Of a stretch of DNA of 21,036 nt, positions 1-19,664 are shown piece after piece. Position 1 is the first letter of the stretch, and the number at the start of each line of letters is the position of its first letter. The translations under genes were made by a program, and so were the position numbers. The stretch is from a virus. Below the pieces are notes generated by a model. The model was not told the DNA's origin. It saw only the letters and a list, made by a program, of their open reading frames with translations, and ran no database searches. Where the stretch lies: positions 1 through 21,036 of IMG/VR virus record IMGVR_UViG_3300027880_000085; one strand, written 5' to 3'.

Positions 1-12
1 GCCAGGGGGTGA
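1..12 (+). CDS. 3' end of an upstream gene (partial)
   Basis: The first bases read Ala-Arg-Gly-stop, with TGA at 10-12, and the stop overlaps the GTG start at 9 in a GTGA joint. Nearly every gene in this window is joined to its neighbour in this way, so the end of a preceding head gene (a portal or MuF-type gene would be expected here) is plausible. Only three codons are visible, so nothing can be said about the product. Confidence 0.3.
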   Translation, partial: ARG

Positions 13-740
13 CCGTCAGCCGGTTGACGGGTGGGGTGAGCGCGGAGGTAGACCTGTACGTGCTCGACGATGGCCGGCGGGTGGTTCGCAAGAAAGGTCC
101 GAAGTGGAATGACGAGCTGGACAGCCGACGGGAAGCCGACGCCGATCAGCTCTACTCGTTGACCGCCCGGTCGCTCGATGCTCGGGTGCCACGGGTCTAC
201 CGGGACGCGCCGGACGTGGTCTGGATGGACTACGAGCATGGCCGCACGTACGCCGAGCTGATCCACGACGATCGGACACTGTGGACAGAGCGGCACGATC
301 AGATTCTCGACACGAAACCCGTTCAGCGGGTCGGACTCATGGACTCACTAGCCGCGAACTCCGACCGCAACACGGGTAACCAGTTCCTGACCGACACGGG
401 GGAGTATGTCGGGCTCGATCACTCGTTCGCCTGGGGTGGGGCCGAGACGAACGGGTTGGATCTCGGGTTGTTCGGTCCGAATGGACTCGGCAGCGTCGGC
501 GCGATACCGGCTCGCTCGTTCGTCGTGCGAGGGCACGATGAGCGGTTGGACATCACCACGAATTCGTGGATCGATAACCCATTGACCGCCGATGATGTGT
601 CAGAGATACGACAGCGGTTGGTTTCACTGCGTGCCGATTTCGACAAACTGGACCGCGGTTACTGGCTGGACTACTCGTTGTCGATGCTCGACGAGCTGGC
701 CGAGCACGCGACCGGGAAGGGGTCGGGTCTCTATGGCTGA
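9..740 (+). CDS. Kinase-fold protein (HipA/PI-kinase-like) in head operon
   Basis: The 243-aa product shows the layout of a compact protein-kinase-like fold. A Gly-containing strand (GGVSAEVDLYVL, residues 8-19) is followed by a basic VVRKK that could hold the ATP lysine. A hinge-like WMDYEHG lies at 72-78. A catalytic-loop-like NSDRNTGN (117-124) gives candidate catalytic D119 and metal-binding N124, and GLDHSFAW (135-142) puts D137 at the DFG-Asp position. This resembles the HipA and actinobacterial PI3/4-kinase-like families more than classic Ser/Thr kinases. The GTG start overlaps the upstream stop and has a G-rich Shine-Dalgarno sequence. It sits just upstream of the prohead protease, so it may act on head proteins or be packaged and delivered; both are guesses. 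The substrate is unknown, and the fold call rests on motifs only. Confidence 0.7.
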   Translation: MTVSRLTGGVSAEVDLYVLDDGRRVVRKKGPKWNDELDSRREADADQLYSLTARSLDARVPRVYRDAPDVVWMDYEHGRTYAELIHDDRTLWTERHDQILDTKPVQRVGLMDSLAANSDRNTGNQFLTDTGEYVGLDHSFAWGGAETNGLDLGLFGPNGLGSVGAIPARSFVVRGHDERLDITTNSWIDNPLTADDVSEIRQRLVSLRADFDKLDRGYWLDYSLSMLDELAEHATGKGSGLYG

Positions 741-966
741 GCCGATGGTGCTGGAGCTGCGCGTCGTAGATCAAGACGCGGCGGTCGGTCGCAAGCTTGG
801 CGAGCTGCGCCGGACCGAGAGCGGCCGGGTGTCCAGCCAGGGTGACGTGGCCGAATCGATCCTGCTCCGGGTGATGCGTGCGGTCGCGGTTGACCGGACG
901 GAAGCGTTCGACCTGCTCGCGGTCAACGGCTGGAGCAACGGTCATCTTGTCCTGGTTGCCGGGTAG
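733..966 (+). CDS. Small conserved-looking phage protein, 77 aa
   Basis: The ATG at 733 lies inside the end of the kinase-like gene (8-nt overlap) and has a GAAGGGG Shine-Dalgarno sequence about 10 nt upstream, which is why this start is preferred over the longer open frame. The product is soluble, with a mixed N-terminal half and a C-terminal helix (VAESILLRVMRAVAVDRTEA) ending in a NGWSNGHLVLVAG motif. I recall similar 'GWSNG' tails on small proteins encoded between the minor capsid and protease genes of actinophages, but this is from memory. The function is unknown; position suggests a head-assembly accessory role. Confidence 0.65.
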   Translation: MAEPMVLELRVVDQDAAVGRKLGELRRTESGRVSSQGDVAESILLRVMRAVAVDRTEAFDLLAVNGWSNGHLVLVAG

Positions 967-977
967 AGGTGCTACCC
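961..977 (+). promoter_or_regulatory. Inverted repeat overlapping start region of protease gene
   Basis: GGGTAG (961-966) and CTACCC (972-977) form a perfect 6-bp inverted repeat with a 5-nt AGGTG loop. The left arm holds the stop codon of the 77-aa gene, and the loop holds the only Shine-Dalgarno-like bases and the GTG at 969. As RNA it could bury this initiation region; as DNA it could be a protein site. It could also be chance. Confidence 0.35.
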
Positions 978-986
978 TGCGATGCC

Positions 987-2000
987 ATGAGGCGCCGCGT
1001 TTCGCGCATGCTGAACAGAAAGACGCTGCCCGACCGGGCGCTACGGGTTGCCCGGCCGCGCGCCGAGCTGCGCGCCGGCCGTACCGACTGGTACCGAATC
1101 GTCAACGCGACCGCTCCCCAGGCCGAGATCTACATCTACAACGAGATTGGTTGGTTCGGTACCACGGCTGACGATTTCGTCAAGGAGCTGCGCGCCATCA
1201 CCGCGGCCGGGATCGACCTGCACATCAACTCTCCGGGTGGGGAGATCTTCGACGGCATCGCGATCTACAACTGCCTGCTGGCGCACCCGGCCGCGGTGAC
1301 CACGTACGTCGACTCGCTCGCGGCTTCGATCGCTTCGGTCATCGCGATGGCCGGCGACAAGATCATCATGGGTCGGAATTCGCAAATGATGATCCATGAC
1401 GGGATGGGGCTGTGCGTCGGCAACGCCGAGGACATGCGCCGGATGGCTGACGATCTCGATGTGCAGTCGGCCAACATCGCCAGCGTGTACGCCGATCGAG
1501 CGGGTGGAACGGTCGACGAGTGGCGCGAACGGATGCGCGCCGAGACGTGGTACTCCGCGGACGAAGCGGTCAGTGCCGGCCTGGCGGACGAGGTGGTTGC
1601 GTTGCGGCCCGGTCCGGCACCGGAGAACAACTGGGACCTCTCGGTCTTCCAGTACGCTGGCCGGGATCGGGCTCCGGCTCCCGTGGCGAGTGCTCCGCAG
1701 CCGCGCGAGCCCGTGAGTGTTCCGGCGCCGGCCGCACCCGCACTCCCCATGCGATCGGCGCCGGAACCTGTGTCTGCGCCGCTGATCGCGTTCAGCCCTG
1801 ACGACTTCCGGGGCATTTTCGAAGACCTGCGCCGAGACGCGCCGGCCCTGCCCGATCCCGTACCCGAGCCGGTACCGGTACCCGTGACGACCGGTCTTCC
1901 GTTCGACATGGTCGACGTTCGCTCGGCCGTCCTCGACAGTCTTCGGTCGGCCAGTCGGCCTGCCGAGCCCGACAACGCCCCCGAAAGGGAGGGACAGTGA
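987..2000 (+). CDS. ClpP-like prohead (capsid maturation) protease
   Basis: This serine peptidase of the S14/ClpP prohead-protease type should trim the capsid delta domain during head maturation. Counting from the upstream GTG at 969, INSPGGEIFDG (86-96) is the oxyanion-side loop, SLAASIAS carries the nucleophile S120, and MMIHDG carries H143. ETWYSADEAVSAGLADEV is the typical family end. The acid position appears to be Glu rather than Asp. After about residue 215 comes a long Pro/Ala-rich extension, including a PVPEPVPVPV stretch, and then a short helix. ATG 987 (337 aa) is chosen; GTG 969 (343 aa) and ATG 1008 remain possible because no clear Shine-Dalgarno sequence decides. The stop overlaps the capsid gene start in a GTGA joint, which suggests translational coupling. 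Confidence 0.93.
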   Translation: MRRRVSRMLNRKTLPDRALRVARPRAELRAGRTDWYRIVNATAPQAEIYIYNEIGWFGTTADDFVKELRAITAAGIDLHINSPGGEIFDGIAIYNCLLAHPAAVTTYVDSLAASIASVIAMAGDKIIMGRNSQMMIHDGMGLCVGNAEDMRRMADDLDVQSANIASVYADRAGGTVDEWRERMRAETWYSADEAVSAGLADEVVALRPGPAPENNWDLSVFQYAGRDRAPAPVASAPQPREPVSVPAPAAPALPMRSAPEPVSAPLIAFSPDDFRGIFEDLRRDAPALPDPVPEPVPVPVTTGLPFDMVDVRSAVLDSLRSASRPAEPDNAPEREGQ

Positions 2001-3484
2001 GCAATCGATCTCACATGATGAGCAGGGGCGTACGTCACCGGCTCGCGCAACTCGGTTTCGACGCTTACCGCAAGCAGGCCATGTTCAACCGCGCGGCGCC
2101 TCCGACCAACGCACCCGATCCGGACACCCTGACCATTCCGAACGACCCGCGCGAACTGGAGGAGATGCTCTCCGACCCGGCCAAGCTGCAGAAGGTGTTC
2201 AGCAATCGCGAGACCGCGACCCAGTTCATCCGCAACTACGCGGGTGGGGTCATGCGCAACCAGGCCGACATCATGCAAGAGGTCCGTGTCGAGGCACAGC
2301 GGTTCATGGCTCAGTGGCTGACCGAGAACCAGCCGGATGCGGTACGCCGGCTGAACCTCGATCTCGCTCAGCGGGTCAGCCCGACCGACCGGATGCACGG
2401 CGACAAGGCCAAGCGCGCCGGGCTGTACAACAGTCGGGCGATGGGTGCCTCGATCGATGGCATGTTCGAGACGAGCGGCGACTACTTCAAGGCGATCTGG
2501 CACAATACGCCCAAAGATGTCGAGCTGCAGACCAAGCTGCGCACCCTGCGCAACGCGTTCTCCTCCACGATCCCGTCCGAGGGCGGTTTCCTGATCCCCG
2601 AGACGCTGCGCTCCGAACTGCTCCGGGTAGCGCTGGAGAACGCGATCGTGCGGTCGCGCGCGCGGGTCATCCCGATGGAGTCGTTGCGGGTGCCGTTCCC
2701 GGCCGTCGATTCGACCAGCAACGTGTCTTCGGTGTACGGCGGCATCGTCGCCTACTGGACCGAAGAGGCCGCGGCGCTGACCGCCAGCTCGGCCACGTTC
2801 GGCCGGGTCGTGCTGGATGCCAAGAAGTTGACCGCGTACACCGAGGTCCCGAGCGAGCTGATCAGCGACTCGATCACCTCGTTCACGGCGTACCTGGACA
2901 TGCTCTTCCCGGAGGCGCTCGGTTTCTACGAAGACGACGCGTTCATCAGCGGGACCGGCGTGGGCGAGCCGCTCGGCTACCTGAACGGCTCGGCCATGAT
3001 CTCGGTGACCAAGGAAGTCGGGCAGGTCGCCAGCACGATTGTCTGGGAGAACATCGTCAAGATGTACTCGCGGATGCTGCCGTCCTCGCTCGGCCGGGCG
3101 GTCTGGGTTGCCTCGATCAACACATTCCCCGAGCTGGCCACGATGGCGCTCACGGTCGGCACCGGCGGTTCGGCGATCTGGTTGAACAACGGTGTCGAGG
3201 GTCCGCCCGTGAGCATCCTCGGCCGGCCGGTGCTGTTCACCGAGAAGGTCCCGCCGCTGGGCACCGCGGGAGATCTGTCCTTCGTGGACTTCGGTTACTA
3301 CCTGATCGGTGACCGGCAGGCCATGAGCGCCATGTCGTCCGAGCACTTCAAGTTTGGCAACGACATGACCGCGTACCGGATCATCGAGCGGGTCGATGGA
3401 CGGCCGTGGCTGCAGAGCGCGATCACCCCCAAGAACAACGGTCCGACGCTCAGTCCGTTCGTACAGATCGAGACACGCGCGTAA
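1997..3484 (+). CDS. Major capsid protein, HK97 fold
   Basis: The 495-aa product is a typical HK97-type major capsid protein. Residues 1 to about 185 form a charged, helical delta (scaffold-like) region. The conserved coat core begins near TIPSEGGFLIPE (191-202) and continues with the SELLR helix, the VPFPAVDSTS strand and a WTEEAAALTASSATFGRVVLDAKK-like region. An ELISDSI segment and the E-loop/A-domain motifs GTGVGEPLGYLN and TAYRIIERVDG follow. The adjacent ClpP-like enzyme probably cleaves somewhere in the 180-195 linker; the exact bond cannot be read from sequence. The GTG start overlaps the protease stop and has a strong GGGAGGGA Shine-Dalgarno sequence. The length is normal for capsid proteins that carry their own scaffold domain. 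Confidence 0.95.
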   Translation: MSNRSHMMSRGVRHRLAQLGFDAYRKQAMFNRAAPPTNAPDPDTLTIPNDPRELEEMLSDPAKLQKVFSNRETATQFIRNYAGGVMRNQADIMQEVRVEAQRFMAQWLTENQPDAVRRLNLDLAQRVSPTDRMHGDKAKRAGLYNSRAMGASIDGMFETSGDYFKAIWHNTPKDVELQTKLRTLRNAFSSTIPSEGGFLIPETLRSELLRVALENAIVRSRARVIPMESLRVPFPAVDSTSNVSSVYGGIVAYWTEEAAALTASSATFGRVVLDAKKLTAYTEVPSELISDSITSFTAYLDMLFPEALGFYEDDAFISGTGVGEPLGYLNGSAMISVTKEVGQVASTIVWENIVKMYSRMLPSSLGRAVWVASINTFPELATMALTVGTGGSAIWLNNGVEGPPVSILGRPVLFTEKVPPLGTAGDLSFVDFGYYLIGDRQAMSAMSSEHFKFGNDMTAYRIIERVDGRPWLQSAITPKNNGPTLSPFVQIETRA

Positions 3485-3690
3485 TTACAAGAACCTCCGC
3501 GGTACCGGGGCTGCAGCGTCGGGAAGCGGATGGTCGTCATGGGCGCAGGCGCGCAGCGAGGGATCGGGAGACCGGACCGCGCAGGGGATCGGATCGTTAC
3601 CGGTCGTGACACGCTCTACGCCGTACCCGGACGGTCCGGGAGTAGGCGGAACCGCGCTGGCATTCGAACCCCGGCCGGAGAGGACGAGAT
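3485..3690 (+). other. 206-nt gap after capsid gene, with a hairpin
   Basis: This is one of the longest gaps without a confident gene in the plus-strand operon. It holds a perfect 6-bp hairpin, CCCGGA-CGG-TCCGGG, at 3626-3640, with no T-tract behind it, so it is at best a partial terminator or an mRNA-processing or stability element. A weak 33-codon frame (GTG 3606 to 3707) also lies here. A gap and hairpin directly behind the capsid gene would fit differential expression of the most abundant protein, but that is inference. Confidence 0.4.
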
Positions 3691-3707
3691 ATGTGGGCTC
3701 TGGGTAG
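3606..3707 (+). CDS. Possible small ORF, 33 aa (weak)
   Basis: A GTG-initiated frame runs through the gap behind the capsid gene and overlaps the start of the next gene by 17 nt. The product begins MTRSTPYPDGPGVGGTALAF and is Pro/Gly-rich. A G-rich stretch lies further upstream than is usual for a Shine-Dalgarno sequence, so initiation is doubtful. It is listed because the overlap fits the pattern of this operon; it may well be non-coding. Confidence 0.18.
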   Translation: MTRSTPYPDGPGVGGTALAFEPRPERTRYVGSG

Positions 3708-4104
3708 GTTGTTCAACATCCTGCCGGTTGCCGATGACGTGTACGTCGACCTGAAGTCGTGCGCCGGCGTGACGTTCGTCGGCGTGAACGCCGCGGGCGA
3801 CACGTGGACGCTGACCGAGGCCAAGGATGCGGCCGGTACCGGTGCGCAGGTTCTGGCGACCATGACGCAGTATTACGTCAGCGCGACCAACGGGGCGGTC
3901 TGGCAGAAGCTGACGCAGGCCGCGGGCTCTACGATCGTGACCACGGCGGCGCAAGACGTGCTCGTGGTCGAGATCGAGGGGGTCGAACTCTCGGCGCTCT
4001 ACGACTGGGTCAAGCTGACCAGCACGGGCGCCGGACTGGTGTACGCCATCACGCGGGACCTCGCCATCCAGCGGGCACCGCAGAACCTCCCGGCGATGGT
4101 GTGA
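3691..4104 (+). CDS. Putative head structural protein, 137 aa
   Basis: The ATG at 3691 has a good GAGAGGA Shine-Dalgarno sequence. The product is predicted to be almost entirely beta strand, with alternating hydrophobic and Thr/Val segments (DVYVDLKSCAGVTFVGVNAA, TWTLTEAKDAAG, DVLVVEIEGVEL, DWVKLTST) and a short C-terminal tail QRAPQNLP. There is no signal peptide or membrane segment. I do not recognise a named family. Position right behind the major capsid protein and the compact beta composition suggest a capsid decoration or cement protein, but it could equally be another head-associated factor. Confidence 0.65.
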   Translation: MWALGRLFNILPVADDVYVDLKSCAGVTFVGVNAAGDTWTLTEAKDAAGTGAQVLATMTQYYVSATNGAVWQKLTQAAGSTIVTTAAQDVLVVEIEGVELSALYDWVKLTSTGAGLVYAITRDLAIQRAPQNLPAMV

Positions 4105-4105
4105 C

Positions 4106-4579
4106 GTGAGCGTCTACAACGATGCCGCCGCGTTCCGCAAGAGCGCGTTCGGCTCCCTGGTCAGCAAGGCGTACACGCCCCTGGCCGTCGAAACCAAGGT
4201 GCTGTTCAACGTCTCCGACCTGTGCATCATCACCGCGATCTTCGGTGTGGTGACTACCAGGATCAGCGTTGCCGGCACGTCCAAGCTGCAGTTCAACCCG
4301 ACCTTGGCCAGCGCGGTCACAACCGACCTGGTCGCCGCGACCGACTTGGGTACGACCGACACGGAGGTGGGCTCACTGCTCAGTTTCGACGGCATCCGGG
4401 CGTCCTCGATCCAGTACGTCGGGGCGGCCGGCGGAGGCGGAGTGCCGATGCTCCAGCGGCCGATCGCGGTACCGGCCGGCGCCATCGAGCAGGTCAACGC
4501 GACCGGTGCCGATGGTGGTATTACCTGGTATCTCACCTACGTCGCCGTGACCGACGGCGCGACCATCGCGGCGGCCTGA
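4106..4579 (+). CDS. Putative head decoration/fibre-type beta protein, 157 aa
   Basis: The GTG at 4106 follows the previous stop by one base. The beta-rich product has the run LFNVSDLCIITAIFGVVTTR, then a strand set around KLQFNPTLASAVTTDLVAATDLGTTDTEVGSLL. It ends with a VPAGAIEQVNATGADGGITWYLTYVAVTDGATI region. As I remember them, many phage structural proteins share this pattern: an 'I-TA--G-VTT' opening, an Asn-Pro strand, a 'VPAG-I' strand, then 'W-L-Y-P/V-DGA'. They are often annotated as hypothetical or head fibre/decoration proteins. No search was possible. Placement among head genes supports a virion surface role. Confidence 0.65.
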   Translation: MSVYNDAAAFRKSAFGSLVSKAYTPLAVETKVLFNVSDLCIITAIFGVVTTRISVAGTSKLQFNPTLASAVTTDLVAATDLGTTDTEVGSLLSFDGIRASSIQYVGAAGGGGVPMLQRPIAVPAGAIEQVNATGADGGITWYLTYVAVTDGATIAAA

Positions 4580-4580
4580 C

Positions 4581-4886
4581 ATGCCCAAGATCACTAGGTA
4601 TGGTGGGCCGAGCATCGAGGGTCCACGTTGGGAGGGCACCGAGCCACTTCCGGCGGCCGAGTCCGAGCAGGTGGAGGAGGTGGGTGAGCCATCGGATGGC
4701 AACAGCTCATCGACATTGCCCGAGAGGCCGCTGACGAATGGCGAGCCGAACGAAGCAGACCCCCAGTCGCCTGTCCCAACGACGGAGAGCCTCTCCGGGC
4801 CGGACCAGCCGGCGTCCTCTTCTGTCCCTTCGACGGATGGCAGTACCCCCGAGACTGGATCCGACCAGCCTGAACAGCCGAGCTGA
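4581..4886 (+). CDS. Disordered acidic protein, 101 aa
   Basis: The ATG at 4581 lies two bases after the preceding stop (4577-4579) with no Shine-Dalgarno sequence of its own, so translation is probably coupled. The product starts MPKITRYGGPSIEG; this short N-terminal motif is followed by about 85 residues rich in Glu, Ser, Pro, Asp and Thr with no predicted structure. From memory, actinophages often have a small protein beginning MPKIT(K/R)-GGPS near the capsid gene. No enzymatic motif is visible. A flexible head-associated or assembly-adapter role is possible; the function is unknown. Confidence 0.65.
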   Translation: MPKITRYGGPSIEGPRWEGTEPLPAAESEQVEEVGEPSDGNSSSTLPERPLTNGEPNEADPQSPVPTTESLSGPDQPASSSVPSTDGSTPETGSDQPEQPS

Positions 4887-4889
4887 ACC

Positions 4890-5621
4890 ATGCCCGGCCC
4901 GTCGCTACGGATCGACGCCGTCTCGTACGACCCGAACGAGGGGCCGGCCGGCTGGTTCACCGCGGCGCCCCGTGGCGGCTCGACCGACCATCCCGCGCTC
5001 GGCGTATCGCAAGATGCGACCGCCGGGCGTGGGGAGGCGCTGCGGATCTTCTCCCGTAACACGGCCGTACCGGTGCTCACGGCGCGCGGTGGTGGGGTGC
5101 TGCTCGACCTGCGCAACAGCGCCGGCACGACGGTTTTTGCGGTCGGCCAGGACGGCGGGCAGACCGGAATCGGCCGGGAGCTGTTCGACGACCTGACCGG
5201 TGACCATGCCGGCGTGGTGTCCAGCACGGTGTTGGTGCACAGTGGCCTGGCGCTCACGCTGGACGTCAGCTCGACGTGGCTGGTCGAGTCGATGGTGGTC
5301 TACACGGGCGTGACCACCGGAGATATCAAGTTCGGCTGGACGGTGCCGGCCGGCGCTACGGGTACATGGGTACCGGGTGGCATCACCAGCGCAGCGAGCG
5401 GCTCGACCGGCGCGGTCAGCCTGGGATCCAAGACCCTGGCCGAGACGGCGATCGTGGGCGCGGTGGACGCGGTCACGCCGCTGGTCGCCATGATCCGGGG
5501 TATCGTCCGGATGGGCGTCACGGCCGGCGCCGTGGAGCTCGACTACGCACAGGGCACATCCGACCCGACTGCCACGATCATGAAAGCCGACAGTTGGTTC
5601 CGCGCGAAGAGGGTTGCATAA
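4890..5621 (+). CDS. Fibre-like structural protein, 243 aa (head region)
   Basis: The N-terminal half carries strand-turn units (ALRIFSRNTAVPVLTARGGG, LLDLRNSAGTTVFAVGQDGG) like the short beta-helical stem of phage fibres. The C-terminal 125 residues form a beta module that runs from SSTVLVHSGLALTLDV to an ending AGAVELDYAQGTSDPTATI, then KADSWFRAKRVA. The same ending pattern closes the 170-aa fibre-like protein at 15251-15763, which suggests a shared receptor-binding or trimerising module. The ATG is three bases after the previous stop with no clear Shine-Dalgarno sequence, suggesting coupling. Position before the connector genes points to a head fibre or capsid-surface appendage rather than a tail fibre; this is inferred from location only. 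Confidence 0.65.
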   Translation: MPGPSLRIDAVSYDPNEGPAGWFTAAPRGGSTDHPALGVSQDATAGRGEALRIFSRNTAVPVLTARGGGVLLDLRNSAGTTVFAVGQDGGQTGIGRELFDDLTGDHAGVVSSTVLVHSGLALTLDVSSTWLVESMVVYTGVTTGDIKFGWTVPAGATGTWVPGGITSAASGSTGAVSLGSKTLAETAIVGAVDAVTPLVAMIRGIVRMGVTAGAVELDYAQGTSDPTATIMKADSWFRAKRVA

Positions 5622-5623
5622 CT

Positions 5624-5657
5624 TAATATCACAGCTCGGACCCGGGGCGTGAGCCCC
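5624..5657 (+). promoter_or_regulatory. AT-rich patch followed by GNRA-capped hairpin
   Basis: In this GC-rich window, 5616-5632 is strikingly AT-rich and contains TAATAT (5624-5629), a plausible -10 element, though I find no good -35 at the right distance. Twenty bases on, GGGGC-GTGA-GCCCC (5644-5657) is a perfect 5-bp stem closed by a GNRA-type GUGA tetraloop. It sits 24 nt ahead of the connector gene start. It may be a promoter with a structured leader for the connector/tail genes. Confidence 0.35.
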
Positions 5658-5681
5658 TAGGCCAGGAAGCAAGGCGAGGGT

Positions 5682-6725
5682 ATGGGCATTTGGTATACTA
5701 CCCGGGAGAAGGTCAAGGCCCGGTTGGACATCAGCGCGACCGCGCGCATAGACGCGCTGGTTGACGACGCGATCGACGCTGCAAGTGCACCGATCGAAGG
5801 GTGCTTGCACCGACGGTTCTATCCCGAGCTCGCGACCCGCTATTTCGACTGGCCGAACTACCAGTACGCGCGTACGTTCCGGCTCTGGCTGGAGTCCAGC
5901 GAGGCAATTTCCCTCAGCCAACTTGTCTCCGGCGGGGTGACGATCCTGGCCTCGGACTACTTCCTGCGCCGTAGCGATGGGCTCGACGAACCGCCGTACG
6001 ACTCGATCGAGATCGACCTGGCGAGCTCGGCCGCATTCGGCTCGGGCAGTACTCACCAGCGCAGCATTGCCGCGACCGGGCTGTTCGGGTTCGACGACAC
6101 CTCGGCGCCGGCTGGCGCCCTTGCGGAAGCGCTGGACTCTTCGGAAACCGCGGTCGACGTGACCAATGCGGCGCTGGTCGGCGTGGGCAACATCGTCAAG
6201 TGTGAGAGCGAGCGCATGATCGTGACCGATCGCGCGCAGCTCGATACCGGGCAGGATCTGATCGGCACCATCGCCGCGGACAAGGCCGTGGTGTCCCTGA
6301 CCGTGGCCGACGGTACCGCTCTGCATGTCGGGGAGACCCTGCTGCTCGACAGCGAACGCATGCAAGTGATCGACATCGCGGGCAACGTGCTGACCGTCAA
6401 ACGGGCCGTAGACGGCTCGGTGCTCGCTGCCCATACCAACTCCTCCATCTACGCCCCTCGGGCGCTCACCGTGACCCGTGGAGCCCTCGGAACCACCGCG
6501 GCGGCGCACGCCGACACGACAGCGCTCACCCGGTACGTTGTGCCCGCCGCGGTCGACGCGTGGGCTCGCGCGCTGGCCATCGACACATTGCTCCAGGAGT
6601 CGAGTGGGTACGCCCGGATGGTCGGCTCGGGCGACAACGAGCGCGAGGCATCCGGGCGCGCGCTCAAGATCGCCGCGCAGCGTGCGGAAGCGCAGTACGG
6701 CCGCGTCCGGCTGGCCGCGATATGA
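5682..6725 (+). CDS. Head-tail connector (adaptor), 347 aa, with inserted beta region
   Basis: This is a head-tail adaptor of the gp6/gp15-like type, which would sit under the portal. Residues 1-60 are helical (TREKVKARLDI... LVDDAIDAASAPIEGCLHRRF) and carry the usual 'I--aLHRrFyP' signature, followed by a YFDWPN strand segment. The C-terminal 60 residues form the closing helices (AAVDAWARALAIDTLLQESSGYARM ... AQRAEAQYGRVRL). Between them lies a roughly 200-residue beta-rich part with two related units, around GNIVKCESERMIVTDRAQ and GETLLLDSERMQVIDIAG, then LTVTRGALGTTAAAH. Family members I know without this insertion are roughly 100-200 aa. The Shine-Dalgarno sequence is AAGGCGAGG. The stop overlaps the next gene (ATGA). 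Confidence 0.8.
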   Translation: MGIWYTTREKVKARLDISATARIDALVDDAIDAASAPIEGCLHRRFYPELATRYFDWPNYQYARTFRLWLESSEAISLSQLVSGGVTILASDYFLRRSDGLDEPPYDSIEIDLASSAAFGSGSTHQRSIAATGLFGFDDTSAPAGALAEALDSSETAVDVTNAALVGVGNIVKCESERMIVTDRAQLDTGQDLIGTIAADKAVVSLTVADGTALHVGETLLLDSERMQVIDIAGNVLTVKRAVDGSVLAAHTNSSIYAPRALTVTRGALGTTAAAHADTTALTRYVVPAAVDAWARALAIDTLLQESSGYARMVGSGDNEREASGRALKIAAQRAEAQYGRVRLAAI

Positions 6726-7123
6726 GCAACCCGAAGATCCAATACCGGGTGCGCGGACCGCTGTTCGACGGCCGGGCACGGCGCGCGCTGGCGATGTACG
6801 TCGAGGAAGTGAAGGCCGAGATCGCATTCCAGGGCCTGGCGGACGTGCATTTCGAGGCGGACCGGATGCTCAGGCACCCGACGCCGTACTGGGAGACGCA
6901 ACTGCAGATCGAGCACGTTCGGCAGGACATCGTAGTCAACGATTCGGACGTGATCTACGGGCCGTGGCTGGAGGGCACCGGCTCGCGCAACAAGACGACC
7001 CGGTTCAAGGGCTACTGGATCTTCCGGCGGGTTACCCAAGCACTGCGTCGCAAGGCGCCGGCCATCGCGCAGCACGTGCTCGTGTTCGGCGGGACGTTGC
7101 GCCGGATGAACGGCGGGATCTGA
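6722..7123 (+). CDS. Head-closure/tail-completion protein, gp10-like, 133 aa
   Basis: The ATG at 6722 overlaps the adaptor stop (ATGA), which is chosen over the longer frame opening at 6560. The product begins with basic strands (KIQYRVRGPLFDGRARRAL), then a helix (MYVEEVKAEIAFQGLADVHFEADRM). It then has the signature VIYGPWLEGTGSRNKTTRF followed by an amphipathic helix (YWIFRRVTQALRRKAPAI). 'YGp-LE-GtgsRn--t-F' is typical of HK97 gp10-type and related minor structural proteins placed between adaptor and tail terminator. The gene order here (adaptor, this gene, terminator, tail tube) supports a head-tail joining role. The exact family is not certain. Confidence 0.75.
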   Translation: MSNPKIQYRVRGPLFDGRARRALAMYVEEVKAEIAFQGLADVHFEADRMLRHPTPYWETQLQIEHVRQDIVVNDSDVIYGPWLEGTGSRNKTTRFKGYWIFRRVTQALRRKAPAIAQHVLVFGGTLRRMNGGI

Positions 7124-7124
7124 C

Positions 7125-7586
7125 GTGGACACCCAGGCGATCATCGACGCGGTGGCGAGCCATGCCATGCGCATCGGGGCGTTCGAGTCGGTCACCACGC
7201 ACGAGCCCAAGGGTGCGTTCACAGCCGGCGGGCTGCGCGCCTCGATCTGGGCTGACGGCATCAAGCCGGTACCGCTCGCGTCCGGCCTGGCCGTGACCAG
7301 CGCACTCCTGACCCTGAACCTGCGTATCTATCTGGGCATGGTCACCGAACCTCAGGAGTCGATCGATCCCGAGATCGTCAAGGTCGTGGACACGCTGATC
7401 GGCGTGTACTCCGGCGACTTCACCCTGGGTGGGCTGATCCGTAACGTCGACCTGCTCGGCGCGTACGGCGCAGCGCTGGAGGCGCGCGCCGGCTATCTGA
7501 TCCTCGGTAGTCCCAGCACCATGTACCGGGTGATCACCATCGTTCTCCCTCTCGTGATCAACGACGCGTGGACCCAGGCGGAGTGA
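7125..7586 (+). CDS. Tail terminator protein, 153 aa
   Basis: The GTG at 7125 follows the previous stop by one base. The length and order fit a siphovirus tail terminator: an N-terminal helix (AIIDAVASHAMRIGAFESV), a GLRASIWADGIKPV segment, and a long central strand pair TSALLTLNLRIYLGM. A helical part PEIVKVVDTLIGVYSG and a C-terminal strand MYRVITIVLPLVINDAW close it. Such proteins cap the tail tube at the head-proximal end and stop polymerisation. It lies directly upstream of the tail-tube gene, as in most siphophages. No unusual features were seen. Confidence 0.78.
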   Translation: MDTQAIIDAVASHAMRIGAFESVTTHEPKGAFTAGGLRASIWADGIKPVPLASGLAVTSALLTLNLRIYLGMVTEPQESIDPEIVKVVDTLIGVYSGDFTLGGLIRNVDLLGAYGAALEARAGYLILGSPSTMYRVITIVLPLVINDAWTQAE

Positions 7587-7590
7587 GGCC

Positions 7591-8343
7591 ATGACCAAAC
7601 AGACCGGGCTCGGTGACAACTGCTACGTAGGCGGGTACGACGTATCCGGCGACACGCAGTCCCTGCAGCGCATCGGGGGCGGACCGGCCGCGCTCGACCT
7701 GACTGCGATCGACAAGTCCGCGTACGAGCGGCTCGGCGGGCTGCGCGACGGCGGGATCGACTGGACGAGCTACTTCGACAAGGCCGCGACAGCCTCGCAC
7801 ATCGCCTACCGGGCGTTGCCCACTGTGGACACTCAGGTCATGTACCTTCGTGGGACCACGCTCGGCAAACCGGCCGCGGCGCTGGTCGGCAAACAGGTCA
7901 ACTACGACGGCAACCGCCAGACGGACGGCTCGCTGTTGTTCACCCTGCAGGCCCTGGCCAACGGCAAGGGCCTGGAATGGGGCGTCAACATGACGGCCGG
8001 TAAGCGCACGGACGGCGCCGCGGCCAACGGTACCGGGGTCGATTTCGCGGCGAGCACGGCGTTCGGCCTGCAGGCGTACCTCCAGGTCTTCGCGTTCACT
8101 GGCACCTCGGTCACGGTCAAGATCCAGGAGAGCAGTGACAATGCGGTCGGTGACCCGTACGCGGACGTGGTCGGCGCCTCGTTCACCGCGGTTACCGCGG
8201 CTCCGGCGTTCGAGCGCGTGCAGACCGCCCGCGGGCTGACCGTCGAGCGCTGGCTCCGGGTGGTCACGACCGGCGTGTTCAGCAATGCCGTATTCGCCGT
8301 GGTGGTCGTCAAGAACGATGTTTCCGTGACGTTCGAATCCTGA
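7591..8343 (+). CDS. Major tail (tube) protein with extra C-terminal domain, 250 aa
   Basis: This is probably a tail tube subunit. The N-terminal 120 residues begin GLGDNCYVGGYDVSGD and contain LDLTAIDKSAYERLGGLRDGGIDWTSYFD, then SHIAYRALPTVDTQVMYLRG. This series parallels the second tail protein at 9007-9414 (VTGVDKSAIERLLLLADFSITLNGVY, then SHAVFKTVPSTSVLRTVSL), so the two are likely paralogues. Residues from about 135 on form a separate beta domain (LQAYLQVFAFTGTSVTVKIQ ... RWLRVVTTGVFSNAVFAVVVV) that could decorate the outside of the tube. The Shine-Dalgarno sequence is GAGG. Which paralogue forms the main tube cannot be decided here. Confidence 0.75.
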   Translation: MTKQTGLGDNCYVGGYDVSGDTQSLQRIGGGPAALDLTAIDKSAYERLGGLRDGGIDWTSYFDKAATASHIAYRALPTVDTQVMYLRGTTLGKPAAALVGKQVNYDGNRQTDGSLLFTLQALANGKGLEWGVNMTAGKRTDGAAANGTGVDFAASTAFGLQAYLQVFAFTGTSVTVKIQESSDNAVGDPYADVVGASFTAVTAAPAFERVQTARGLTVERWLRVVTTGVFSNAVFAVVVVKNDVSVTFES

Positions 8344-8358
8344 GGAGGAGAGAGAGGG

Positions 8359-8802
8359 ATGCAACCGATCAATCGGGTACAGCCGGTGCTGCCGATCACC
8401 GCGATGATGACTTACCAGATCCTGGCACCGGTCGAGACGCACTGGCGGCAGGTACCGTGCACCGCGGATAACTGCCCGAACCATGTGCACGGCTGGCGCT
8501 CCTATGTCGATGAGTCGACCGACATCGGCCGGCGTCAGGCGTACGCCATCCGGCATCAGCTCGGCCGTGGGTTCCTGGAGGAGCGGAACGAGCACGGGAT
8601 CACCGAGTTCACGTTCCCGGCCGGACAGCAGTGTTTCGACGTGCACCGGGAGCGGGTCGAGCGGCCGGAGCACTTCCTGGTGCGAGCTGGCGACCACCGC
8701 TCGTCGCTGGAGGTCATCCGTCGGCACGCCAGCGCGGACGACTGGGTGGACGACTTCGCCAATCATCAGATCGAGATCGCAGAGAGGGTGAACCGTGGCT
8801 AA
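8359..8802 (+). CDS. Conserved-looking tail-region protein with CxxxxC motif, 147 aa
   Basis: It has an excellent GAGGAGAGAGAGG Shine-Dalgarno sequence ahead of the ATG at 8359. The product has a hydrophobic strand start (VLPITAMMTYQILAPV), a THWRQVPCTADNCPNHVHGWRSYVDE segment, and a basic helix (RRQAYAIRHQLGRGFLEE). An ITEFTFPAGQQCFDVHRE strand, HFLVRAGDH and a C-terminal acidic helix follow. The Cys/His cluster (C-x4-C-x3-H-x-H) could bind a metal, but I do not recognise a named domain. The position between two tail-tube genes suggests a tail assembly or structural role. From memory, similar proteins occur at this spot in actinophages. Confidence 0.65.
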   Translation: MQPINRVQPVLPITAMMTYQILAPVETHWRQVPCTADNCPNHVHGWRSYVDESTDIGRRQAYAIRHQLGRGFLEERNEHGITEFTFPAGQQCFDVHRERVERPEHFLVRAGDHRSSLEVIRRHASADDWVDDFANHQIEIAERVNRG

Positions 8803-9014
8803 GGCTGTGAGCTCGGTTCATCACCGATGCATTGGTGCGCGCTGGGCTGATCCAGCCGAACGAAGTCAACGAGATAATGCGAGTCGTGATCGACATTCGA
8901 GCCGGCGACATGCCGATTATGTACGTCCAAAGAGATTGTGACTCGTTTGGGTTGGCGGTAGCGCTCGGCGAGGACGGTATTCGGATCGAACGAAGGGACA
9001 GACCCGATGGCTAA
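8795..9014 (+). pseudogene. Small tail-region gene with apparent frameshift near its start
   Basis: GTG 8795 has a strong AGAGAGGG Shine-Dalgarno sequence and reads MAKAVSS, then continues in a frame that ends at 8941 with Arg/His-rich, unprotein-like sequence. Moving one base forward (+1) at about 8816, the other frame reads FITDALVRAGLIQPNEVNEI and goes on for 66 residues to the stop at 9012-9014, ending in GLAVALGEDGIRIERRD. This second frame looks like real protein and overlaps the next start by 8 nt, but it has only TTG 8832 and GTG 8835 as starts, with no Shine-Dalgarno sequence. Either a 7-nt insertion (GTGAGCT, just after AAGGCT) broke the gene, or a +1 shift or weak start is used. 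The function is unknown. Confidence 0.5.
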
Positions 9015-9417: not shown

Positions 9418-9885
9418 ATGGGCTACGTGCGTGACCGGATCTACCGGCTGAAGTTCACCGATGACGAGTACTGCTCGCCGGAGACCGGTGACCCGCTGGA
9501 GGTTCGCGTCCGGCCCATGTCGATCGGCGTGCTCGATATGGTGGGCGAGCTGACCGAGCTGCGTGAGCGCAAGCTCACCGCGGCCGACATAAAGAGGATC
9601 TTCGAACTGTTCGAGCTGTTCGCCGAGCACCTGGTGAGTTGGAACCTGGAGACCGCCAAGCTCGACGAACGCGGCGAGCCCATCGAGGGTGAGACCGTAC
9701 CGGTGCCGGCCACTGTGGACGGTGTACGGGCGCAGGATCTGGACTTCGGACTTACGCTCATGTTCGCCTGGCTGGACGCGGTGACCGGGGTGCCCGCCCC
9801 TTTAGCCGCGCCCTCCAGCTCTGGCGCCTCGTACCCGGCGGTATCGATTCCGATGGAAACGTTGTCACCAAACCCCGAGAGCTAG
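9418..9885 (+). CDS. Tail assembly chaperone (G-type, unshifted)
   Basis: The 155-aa product lies immediately upstream of the tape measure gene. It begins with a strand-rich part (RLKFTDDEYCSPETGDPLEV) followed by helices (VRPMSIGVLDMVGELTELRE, AADIKRIFELFELFAEHLVSW) and an acidic linker. A helix around LDFGLTLMFAWLDAVTG comes next, then a low-complexity Pro/Ser/Ala tail of the kind seen when the zero frame only serves to reach a stop. Tail assembly chaperones of this type bind the tape measure protein during tail assembly. The slippery site at codons 128-129 permits the longer product described separately. Confidence 0.82.
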   Translation: MGYVRDRIYRLKFTDDEYCSPETGDPLEVRVRPMSIGVLDMVGELTELRERKLTAADIKRIFELFELFAEHLVSWNLETAKLDERGEPIEGETVPVPATVDGVRAQDLDFGLTLMFAWLDAVTGVPAPLAAPSSSGASYPAVSIPMETLSPNPES

Positions 9886-17668: not shown

Positions 17669-17866
17669 ATGAGCGACGAGTACGAGACCGGCGTGCCACC
17701 GTTGACCGAAGCTGAGTACGTCGAGGACGTTACTCCAGAGAACGATCCGGACGCGGTTGCCGAGGCTGAGCTCACGGCGGAAGCCGAAGCGCTCGAAGCG
17801 GCGAACGAGGCTGCGCAGGACGAGTCCGAGAGCGACGACGCGCCGGATCCGAACCTGGGCGAGTAG
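17669..17866 (+). CDS. Highly acidic protein without Lys, Arg or His, 65 aa
   Basis: The ATG at 17669 has a strong GGAAGGGAAG Shine-Dalgarno sequence. By my count 23 of 65 residues are Asp or Glu and none is Lys, Arg or His, so the net charge is about -23. The middle (AEAELTAEAEALEAANEAAQ) should be a single acidic helix; both ends look disordered, and the product ends DDAPDPNLGE. No membrane segment or signal is seen. It is the last plus-strand gene before the convergent terminator, separated from the lysis genes by a palindrome. DNA-mimic anti-defence proteins have such composition, but so do flexible structural or chaperone-like proteins. The function is unknown. Confidence 0.7.
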   Translation: MSDEYETGVPPLTEAEYVEDVTPENDPDAVAEAELTAEAEALEAANEAAQDESESDDAPDPNLGE

Positions 17867-17870
17867 ATCT

Positions 17871-17891
17871 TTTCTCTCCTCCAAAGAGAAA
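17871..17891 (+). terminator. Small AT-rich hairpin after last plus-strand gene
   Basis: TTTCTCT (17871-17877) can pair with AGAGAAA (17885-17891) over a 7-nt loop, five bases after the stop of the acidic gene. It is a weak stem alone. For minus-strand RNA that has passed the 16-bp hairpin, this stretch supplies the U-rich tail (CTTTCTCTTT). Confidence 0.4.
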
Positions 17892-17892
17892 G

Positions 17893-17933
17893 CAACAGAT
17901 CCCTGCCGGACACTTGGCGGCAGGGATCTGTTG
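17893..17933 (+). terminator. Strong hairpin terminator, 16-bp perfect stem
   Basis: CAACAGATCCCTGCCG (17893-17908) and its exact reverse complement (17918-17933) enclose a 9-nt loop, and TCTGTCT follows. A perfect GC-containing 16-bp stem directly behind the last plus-strand gene is a convincing intrinsic terminator, although the T-run is broken. It can work for both directions because the minus-strand side is also followed by a pyrimidine-rich tract. Confidence 0.8.
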
Positions 17934-17938
17934 TCTGT

Positions 17939-18002
17939 CTATGTAGACTTTCAAATACAGGAAAAGGCCCGGCTCGCGAGAGGCATTCCAAAGTCTACAT
18001 AG
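17939..18002. repeat. 13-bp inverted repeat overlapping the large terminator repeat
   Basis: CTATGTAGACTTT (17939-17951) and AAAGTCTACATAG (17990-18002) are perfect reverse complements 38 nt apart. The left copy shares its GACTTT with the left arm of the 34-bp repeat, so the two hairpins exclude each other. AAAGTCTAC (17990-17998) could also pair with GTGGACTTT (18003-18011) over a 4-nt loop with one U-G pair. Confidence 0.85.
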
Positions 18003-18055
18003 GTGGACTTTCAAATCCTCTTCGCGAGCCGGGCCTTTTCCTGTATTTGAAAGTC
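17946..18055. terminator. 34-bp perfect inverted repeat, bidirectional terminator
   Basis: The left arm (17946-17979) begins GACTTTCAAATACAGG and ends GGCTCGCGA; the right arm (18022-18055) is its exact reverse complement, with a 42-nt spacer. In either direction the GC-rich block GGCCCGGCTCGCGA/TCGCGAGCCGGGCC is followed by TTTTCC, giving an intrinsic terminator on both strands. It lies between convergent transcription units, and the right arm reaches two bases into the stop codon of the minus-strand gene. Arms of 34 bp are longer than usual, so a mobile or duplicated origin is possible. Confidence 0.85.
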
Positions 18056-18392
18056 AGAGCGACGGTTCGCCAGCGTGCACCCGGGCGAACGGATCGGTCG
18101 TGGGCAGGGCTGCCGCCGTGGGTGGGGTGGGCGCGTCCAGCTCGACGGAGCTCGGCGGGGTTACGGGCTTCGGCGGGCGACCGCGGCGTCGGCCGCCCCC
18201 GTTGACGACCGGCTCGGGTACTGGCGGGAAGCCCGCGGCGGTCAGGGTGGCGTTCAGCCGGTTGGCCAGCTCACCGACCATGCCCTTGATGCCAGCGCCG
18301 ACCATGCCGGGCTCGCCGGTTACTTGGGCGATCAGCACGGGTGGGCTGTCGTCGTCGAGCTTCTCCAGCGTCCAGCGGTACAACTCGGTCAT
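18054..18392 (-). CDS. Protein with AT-hook-like motif, 112 aa
   Basis: The ATG at 18392 overlaps the stop of the resolvase gene (ATGA). Residues 1-55 look folded: YRWTLEKLDDDSPPVLIAQV, then GMVGAGIKGMVGELANRLNA, helix- and strand-prone. After FPPVPEPVVNGGG comes RRRGRPPKPV, matching the AT-hook core RGRP with flanking basic and Pro residues, and then an unstructured Pro/Thr/Ala tail. An AT-hook would bind the minor groove of AT-rich DNA, which is rare in this genome. No family is recognised. It is the last gene of the minus operon and ends at the terminator repeat. Confidence 0.65.
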   Translation of the reverse strand: MTELYRWTLEKLDDDSPPVLIAQVTGEPGMVGAGIKGMVGELANRLNATLTAAGFPPVPEPVVNGGGRRRGRPPKPVTPPSSVELDAPTPPTAAALPTTDPFARVHAGEPSL

Positions 18393-18892
18393 ACGTTATT
18401 CTCCAATTCGGACAGTTGAGTTACCTTGACCCATGCGCCGGTCCATCCGTCGATGGCACGACGTTTGGTGTGTAGGTATTCGGAGCCGGTGATGATCGGC
18501 CATGTCTCGGGTCTACCGGCATACACCTTGTAGAGTCGATCACAGCCGACCCACAGTGCATCGTCCGCCCATACGCCGGCCCGGGTGAGTGCGTCGGCCA
18601 CGCCACGCGCCAGCTTGTCGAGGTCCGGCGGCTTGGCCGGGTAGTCGTCCAGCCAGGGCGTGTCCGGGCTCTGGTGCTCGGCCCGGTCGAGCGAGAACAC
18701 CAGATCGAGCACGCAGGGCATGGTGGCGGTTCGCCACTTCGCGGCGATGCGCGCCCGTTGCGCGGCCAGGATAACCGCGTCCATCCAGGCGGGCAGGTAG
18801 CGCGACTGTTCGTAGAACTGGCCCGCTCCGCCGTGCTGTTTCGAGCCCTTGGGCGCCGGTCGGCCGTACGTGACGAACTCCAGCGCGCTCAC
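18389..18892 (-). CDS. RusA-type Holliday junction resolvase, 167 aa
   Basis: The N-terminus has the RusA-like start VSALEFVTYGRPAPKGSKQH. The catalytic region PAKPPDLDKLARGVADALTR is followed by AGVWADDALWVGCDRLYKVY, which supplies the expected cluster of aspartates (PDLD, DAL and the DD pair) that bind metal in RusA. Such enzymes cut four-way DNA junctions made during phage recombination or replication, or trim branches before packaging. GTG 18892 overlaps the previous gene's stop (GTGA); the upstream extension in the same frame is Arg/Pro-rich shadow sequence and is left out. The C-terminal 30 residues (HTKRRAIDGWTGAWVKVTQL) are an added strand/helix. Confidence 0.9.
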   Translation of the reverse strand: MSALEFVTYGRPAPKGSKQHGGAGQFYEQSRYLPAWMDAVILAAQRARIAAKWRTATMPCVLDLVFSLDRAEHQSPDTPWLDDYPAKPPDLDKLARGVADALTRAGVWADDALWVGCDRLYKVYAGRPETWPIITGSEYLHTKRRAIDGWTGAWVKVTQLSELENNV

Positions 18893-19107
18893 TTCGGATC
18901 CAGCTCCCTGGGGTGCTCGCCGTACCAGTGCATGGCCGCGACGAGCGCGGCCCGGTGCTTGCGGTGGTCCTGGCGCTTGAACGTACGGGTGATCTCGCTG
19001 CGCAACTCGGACGGCAGCCGGTACCAGTCGGTCGGGCAGGCCAACTTGTCGCGGTGCACCCGCTCGCCGCAGCCCCCGGGGCATTCGTGGGTGCCCTCGC
19101 GGCTCAC
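18889..19107 (-). CDS. Small Cys-rich (zinc-ribbon-like) protein, 72 aa
   Basis: GTG 19107 overlaps the stop of the gene above (GTGA) and its own stop overlaps the resolvase start. The short product begins MSREGTHECPGGCGERVHRD and continues KLACPTDWYRLPSELRSEIT. The C-x3-C ... C-x-x-x-W pattern with His and a following helix is like small phage zinc-ribbon proteins. The rest is basic (RTFKRQDHRKHRAAL), suiting nucleic-acid contact. Conserved neighbours (resolvase, Pro-rich protein) suggest a role in DNA metabolism. The metal site is a guess from Cys and His spacing. Confidence 0.75.
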   Translation of the reverse strand: MSREGTHECPGGCGERVHRDKLACPTDWYRLPSELRSEITRTFKRQDHRKHRAALVAAMHWYGEHPRELDPK

Positions 19108-19520
19108 CGCGCGTACTCCAGCTCGGCGCTGGCCGCGTGGACGGTCCGCCAGGCGGACGTGTCGAACGTCAGCCAGGACGGGTCGACCTGAGGCATTTGC
19201 TCGGCGAGGGTGTCGAACAGCACGGCTGGCGGGCTCTCCGGCGTGAATCCGTCGATGATCCGGTTCAGGATCAGGTTCGCGTCGAATCCACGTTCGACCG
19301 CGCTCCATCCGGCCGGGTCGGGCGCCTGCTCGGCCGCGGTGTGCAGCTCGACCGCGTATGCCTCGTCGGCGCCGTCGTGCTCGAATGCCCAGCGTGTCCG
19401 ACGACTGATGAGCCCCAGGGCCTGATCGACCAGCAGAAGCGCCCCGCCGAGCACGAGCATGCAGCCGACGAGAATCAACACCGGCCCACGAGCGGCCAGC
19501 GAGGGAACCGCGAACGTCAT
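19104..19520 (-). CDS. Membrane-anchored protein, one TM, 138 aa
   Basis: The ATG at 19520 has a GGAGGAGAG Shine-Dalgarno sequence. Residues 12-36 (PVLILVGCMLVLGGALLLVD) form one clear membrane segment near the N-terminus, preceded by a short polar start. The remaining 100 residues are acidic and soluble (TRWAFEHDGADEAYAVELHT, then LILNRIIDGFTPESPPAVLF), probably cytoplasmic by the positive-inside rule because RR follows the TM. No known domain is recognised. Its position among DNA-metabolism genes does not tell its job. Confidence 0.7.
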   Translation of the reverse strand: MTFAVPSLAARGPVLILVGCMLVLGGALLLVDQALGLISRRTRWAFEHDGADEAYAVELHTAAEQAPDPAGWSAVERGFDANLILNRIIDGFTPESPPAVLFDTLAEQMPQVDPSWLTFDTSAWRTVHAASAELEYAR

Positions 19521-19523
19521 CGT

Positions 19524-19589
19524 CTACTCTCCTCCAACGGTGCCAGGTCCCGCCCGAGCCTTGTTCGGCGAGTCGAGCGGGACCGACAC
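19524..19589 (-). CDS. Possible 21-aa ORF in intergenic gap
   Basis: GTG 19589 is preceded by GAAGGA about 7 nt upstream, and the frame ends at TAG four bases before the ATG of the membrane-anchored protein. The product would be MSVPLDSPNKARAGPGTVGG plus Glu. It is too short to judge by composition. The operon's pattern of end-to-end reading makes it conceivable; it may only couple translation to the next gene. Confidence 0.22.
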   Translation of the reverse strand: MSVPLDSPNKARAGPGTVGGE

Positions 19590-19592
19590 GGC

Positions 19593-19664
19593 CTATTCCT
19601 TCAGCTCACGCCTGGCCTTCAGCTCACGTGCCACCAAGCGAATGTGATCGTGAACACGGCTCAC
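19593..19664 (-). CDS. Very small gene, 23 aa, coupled to the Pro-rich protein gene
   Basis: GTG 19664 overlaps the stop of the gene above in a GTGA joint. The product begins MSRVHDHIRLVARELKARRE and ends LKE. It should be one basic amphipathic helix. The coding DNA has an exact 13-nt tandem unit (CGTGAGCTGAAGG twice, 20 nt apart), giving ARELKA and RRELKE. Overlap style and composition support real translation; the function is unknown. Confidence 0.4.
   Translation of the reverse strand: MSRVHDHIRLVARELKARRELKE

Follow-up and report, generated by a model that had tools for sequence, protein, structure and literature searches.

Probable tandem two-way terminators, one of them an overlong palindrome, at a convergent gene junction of an uncultivated actinobacteriophage-like siphovirus

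Why does the meeting point of two viral operons carry a palindrome far longer than a terminator needs, directly behind an ordinary hairpin? The locus lies in a 21,036-nucleotide stretch of DNA (the window, by which we mean the whole sequence analysed), a fragment of an uncultivated actinobacteriophage-like siphovirus from an IMG/VR-type virus record. The + strand of the window carries head, tail and lysis genes, and its last open reading frame before the junction (17669-17866, stop codon 17864-17866) codes for 65 amino acids, belongs to no PHROGs family and has a 3' end that is conserved in a sister phage, L010 (IMGVR_UViG_3300027880_000075, also recorded as 3300006880_000246). On the opposite strand, the junction-proximal frame (18054-18392, TGA stop at 18054-18056) codes for 112 amino acids with 79% identity to its counterpart in the sister; beside it in the leftward block lies a gene annotated as a RusA-like Holliday-junction resolvase (18389-19084, minus strand). 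The gene layout confirms that a rightward block meets a leftward block here, as a first-pass annotation had proposed.

The long palindrome described in that annotation is present exactly as a perfect inverted repeat. Its left arm (17946-17979, GACTTTCAAATACAGGAAAAGGCCCGGCTCGCGA) and right arm (18022-18055, TCGCGAGCCGGGCCTTTTCCTGTATTTGAAAGTC) pair at 34/34 bp across a 42-nt spacer. The left arm holds an A-tract in the rightward reading, which is a T-tract in the leftward one, and the right arm supplies the T-tract TTTTCCTGTATTT for the rightward reading; the end of the right arm overlaps the TGA stop of the leftward gene. The 42-nt centre (17980-18021) forms an imperfect hairpin of its own (-16.9 kcal/mol, z -5), and when mismatches are allowed the palindrome extends inwards to 53-nt arms (17946-17998/18003-18055) that are 87% complementary around a 4-nt loop. 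The whole element can be drawn as one 110-nt hairpin of -85.6 kcal/mol. The fold on the opposite strand is comparable, with a folding z of -16 to -17.6 on either strand, and 0 of 200 shuffles folded as well. Two copies of GACTTT (at 17946 and 18006) and two of its complement AAAGTC (ending at 17995 and 18055) bear out the reported D-D'-D-D' order. We also observed that the C-terminus of the 112-residue leftward protein (window 18054-18075) reads SL where the sister has YEDAPF, the change falling exactly at the start of the palindrome.

Such a structure is not expected by chance: a random 21-kb sequence of the same composition would hold about 1e-13 perfect stems of 34 bp whose loop does not exceed 60 nt. 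No longer stem occurs in 1.44 Mb of related phage contigs; the runners-up there are a poly-C/poly-G run of 23 bp and a stem of 20 bp. A near-identical contig, IMGVR_UViG_3300006969_000150, shows 4 differences from the window over 11,580 positions; none lies near the palindrome, which is identical letter for letter. An assembly artefact is unlikely as its source, because the 110 nt would fit within one ordinary short read.

Upstream of the palindrome we confirmed the perfect 16-bp hairpin of the first-pass annotation. This hairpin 1 (17893-17933) has arms at 17893-17908 and 17918-17933 that pair at 16/16 bp around a 9-nt loop. The sister carries a hairpin at the same place, in which 4 of the 16 pairs are changed on both sides, 12 are unchanged and none is broken; its loop, unlike the stem, has diverged between the two phages. 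The shuffle control for these compensatory changes is weak (37/500 shuffles, with two distinct sequences only). The T-rich flanks on both sides are also conserved in the sister. In the leftward reading, the T-rich tail CTTTCTCTTT follows hairpin 1 immediately and is picked up by a terminator scan. This tail comes from the block TTTTCTCTCCTCCAAAGAGAAAG (17870-17892), a small imperfect pyrimidine/purine hairpin that is conserved in L010. In the rightward reading the tail TCTGTCTATGT is T-rich but interrupted, and the conserved + strand stretch TCTGTCTATGTAGAC (17934-17948) forms the T-rich tail of hairpin 1 and a small dyad. Hairpin 1 is thus a stable GC-containing hairpin between convergent genes, with a T-rich tract on both strands and compensatory stem changes, the features looked for in a terminator. 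Because of the compensatory pair changes and the conserved T-rich flanks in the sister, we conclude from comparative sequence that hairpin 1 is conserved and is most likely the ancestral bidirectional intrinsic terminator.

Two further features of these flanks were noted. The conserved motif TGTCTATGTAGAC was considered as a repeated operator and rejected; it has a single exact copy in each phage, and we therefore assign it to the terminator tail. Read leftward, the block at 17870-17892 also contains a strong ribosome-binding-like GGAGGAG, conserved in the sister, which has no start codon nearby; the same motif precedes the start of a leftward gene near window position 19510.

The long palindrome has a different history. 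It was not found at the corresponding junction of the sister, where the similarity to the left arm is not significant (P 0.15) and neither is the fold. A decayed palindrome in the sister (CAAAT..AAGGCC / GGCCT..TTTG) was considered and rejected, since its alignment against shuffles gave P 0.05-0.8 and its folding z was about -1 to 0. Absence of the exact arm from any relative had been named in the first-pass annotation as part of what would favour a chance elaboration, and the sister does lack the arm. Searches for further relatives with the RusA, lysin, tail and flanking genes returned the junction in the same two phage types only; the endolysin relatives L011 and L012 have no syntenic junction, and the search for prophage relatives in bacterial genomes gave one distant match, in Rhizocola, without the junction sequence. 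The comparison of these two phages suggests that the palindrome is recent in the window phage, or else was lost from the sister.

The two phages are not equally related along their length. Identity is 94.6% over the first 8.8 kb (head genes), 86-89% in the tail genes and 77% in the junction flank. The fall is sharp, from about 95% in the head genes (window 1-8804) to 75-77% in 17714-19601, which suggests mosaic exchange or a faster change of the leftward block.

What might the palindrome do? On each strand a GC stem is followed by a T-tract, GGGCC-TTTTCCTGTATTT, by perfect symmetry. On either strand, the GC core (GGCCCGGCTCGCGA/TCGCGAGCCGGGCC) has A's ahead of it and TTTTCCTGTATTT behind it. 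RNA polymerase, whichever side it came from, would then pause on the U-tract, giving a very stable hairpin time to form and to extract the RNA, and where polymerases meet head-on the structure would help to end both transcripts. Two-way termination on top of that provided by hairpin 1 would be the simplest reading of the palindrome, which is most likely a second bidirectional intrinsic terminator. We put the probability at roughly 60% that the junction consists of tandem two-way intrinsic terminators between the rightward late operon and the leftward operon, with hairpin 1 ancestral and the palindrome a young, lineage-specific addition produced by template switching. The earlier remark that the structure far exceeds the needs of a terminator is supported, and the anatomy of a terminator is present on both strands; the palindrome is probably striking in its length and ordinary in its function.

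Several observations count against termination by the palindrome. The perfect stem closes a loop of 42 nt, far longer than the 4-8 nt that PMC8269248 gives as the optimum for intrinsic terminators of E. coli, although this centre, with mismatches, itself folds until a loop of 4 nt is left; a short loop is typical of such terminators but does not strictly define them. Pairing continues through the U-tract to the ends of the arms, which is superfluous for any terminator. The sister manages without a long palindrome, and hairpin 1 alone may already suffice.

Known systems offer partial parallels. The convergent junctions of the Streptomyces phages R4, Verse and Dagobah have single perfect or near-perfect hairpins of 12-17 bp. 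Bidirectional, overlapping intrinsic terminators (Ju, Li and Liu 2019, as cited in PMC8269248; the Streptomyces Bi-TEPs) likewise place a stable stem between opposed units, and in Streptomyces clavuligerus, bidirectional 3' ends are reported there to show both longer, more stable stems and lower read-through (PMC8269248). The usual terminators of this kind, as that source presents them, have a far shorter stem and a short loop, whereas the present element has 34 perfect bp and an imperfect core, a folded 42-nt centre and pairing that runs past the T-tract. In the description of Mycobacterium smegmatis gyrA in PMC8355165, two hairpins stand in series after the stop codon, as here, and such tandem hairpins are stated to terminate better than single ones; the stems of such tandem terminators are typically short and are not inverted copies of each other. 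The terminator in the gene 32-33 region of the cluster A mycobacteriophages L5, D29 and StarStuff ends rightward late transcription at the close of the structural operon (PMC5712189), and its counterpart here is hairpin 1. A second, overlong palindrome is not part of the description of these phages as available from PMC5712189, and no sequence match to any phage record was found.

The internal layout of the palindrome points to how it may have arisen. Its 110 bp consist of a 50-nt unit A (17946-17995; D, a 28-nt spacer and an imperfect D'), a 10-nt link and a 50-nt unit B (18006-18055; D, the spacer of unit A inverted and a perfect D'). Save for a few changes at one end, unit B is unit A with its spacer inverted: the order of D and D' is kept, the 28-nt spacer is turned around and the outer 34 bp are perfect. 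A template switch by DNA polymerase, begun at an imperfect inverted repeat adjoining hairpin 1, may have copied the segment back in inverted orientation and thereby made the arms perfect. Homogenisation of arms and inversion of the spacer are described products of template switching (PMC8604942), and since the D-D'-D-D' layout with its inverted spacer fits those products, we favour such an origin. The excess length and the repeated layout are best explained by this putative origin, not by an extra function. Both products are common to the present case and to quasi-palindrome correction, or template switching, as known from PMC8604942 and PMC3820800; those events were traced in yeast, whereas here the origin is reconstructed without an ancestral sequence.

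The main rival to tandem terminators, which we regard as possible but doubtful, is that template switching left the palindrome behind as a by-product without function, tolerated between genes beside a hairpin 1 that is sufficient by itself. Its absence from the sister, whose junction bears an inverted-copy scar of its own, and the confinement of conservation to hairpin 1 are what this explanation would predict. It accords less well with arms that are still perfect over 34 bp and with the A/T tracts that stand symmetrically at the GC core. As DNA, long palindromes tend to be unstable, yet two separately assembled contigs carry this one, which hints at some use or at great youth. A mobile origin, in the form of a MITE-like miniature transposable element with 34-bp terminal inverted repeats, deserves hardly any credence. 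Perfect terminal repeats do flank a 42-bp centre, and one phage has the element where the other lacks it at the same place, but neither end has a target-site duplication within 3 nt, and the left end lies within sequence common to the sister (GTAGAC). Two exact patterns of the arm, run against 2.9 million viral contigs, returned this element only. Neither annotated phages nor plasmids yielded anything for the junction DNA beyond 22-nt chance matches, these coming from the phages, and in 395 actinobacterial genomes five matches at E <= 0.01 (E per genome) were found, about the number expected by chance. Two of the checks proposed in the first-pass annotation, a search for the arm in other phages and one for target-site duplications, thus spoke against its suggestion of a MITE-like insertion.

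The idea of a regulated switch, in which an alternative stem competes with the long hairpin, is just as improbable, although the alternative stems foreseen earlier are real in the sequence. Stem S1 (17939-17956/17985-18002) has 16 of 18 pairs and -21.5 kcal/mol, and stem S2 (18006-18016/18045-18055) has 11/11 pairs and -13.1 kcal/mol. When the rightward RNA is folded step by step, S1 gives the most favourable partial structure until about 18025, but the full hairpin has taken over by 18030, before the T-tract is transcribed; the leftward RNA follows an equivalent course. Together S1 and S2 reach about -35 kcal/mol against -85.6 kcal/mol for the full hairpin. A stable two-state switch is unlikely because the alternatives fall about 50 kcal/mol short of the full hairpin, and stepwise folding yields the full hairpin as soon as the right arm is complete; the terms "switchable" and "mutually exclusive" are therefore not supported. 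The sister, moreover, lacks the palindrome. A source of double-stranded RNA or a barrier to colliding polymerases is conceivable. The more definite proposal, a stable or double-stranded RNA in which a hairpin of about 50 bp shields the 3' end from nucleases or serves as a substrate of RNase III, is improbable. The -85.6 kcal/mol fold and the comparable one on the other strand would suit it, but the palindrome is not conserved, a promoter-like site was looked for nearby and none was found, and Rfam gives only generic miRNA-type long hairpins well below gathering scores, which we rejected as sub-threshold artefacts of any long hairpin. That the palindrome acts at the DNA level, be it as a cruciform, an origin, a site of recombination or the target of a resolvase, perhaps of the RusA-like nuclease next door, is very improbable. 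The near-perfect palindrome does adjoin the resolvase gene, but Dubu and phiSASD1 have RusA-like genes without such a long palindrome. The sister likewise has the resolvase gene and no palindrome, and the proximity of this gene to a cruciform-capable palindrome is therefore probably a coincidence.

Returning to tandem terminators of which the second was made by template switching, the scar in the sister bears on how such junctions may evolve. In L010, 30 bp at the junction (7297-7326) recur as a perfect inverted copy at 9432-9461, 2.1 kb away; this second site is where a leftward gene has its 3' end, within DNA that is inserted relative to the window. This repeat may be a templated copy, or could permit inversion of the intervening segment. 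That this junction bears distinct inverted-copy scars in the two phages suggests a local tendency, although two cases are no proof of a hot spot. That the junction is a hot spot of repeated inverted self-copies in this lineage, gaining new terminator hairpins by template switching instead of point mutation, perhaps with head-on transcription or replication at the terminator hairpin as the trigger, is an unlikely idea that we offer as speculation.

In summary, if the long palindrome terminates transcription, these two sister phages, only one of which has it, would make a clean pair for asking what a second, overlong hairpin contributes at a convergent junction; otherwise, this would be an ordinary junction with a curious scar. 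And if its origin by template switching is true, the locus would be a snapshot of strong terminators appearing in one step.
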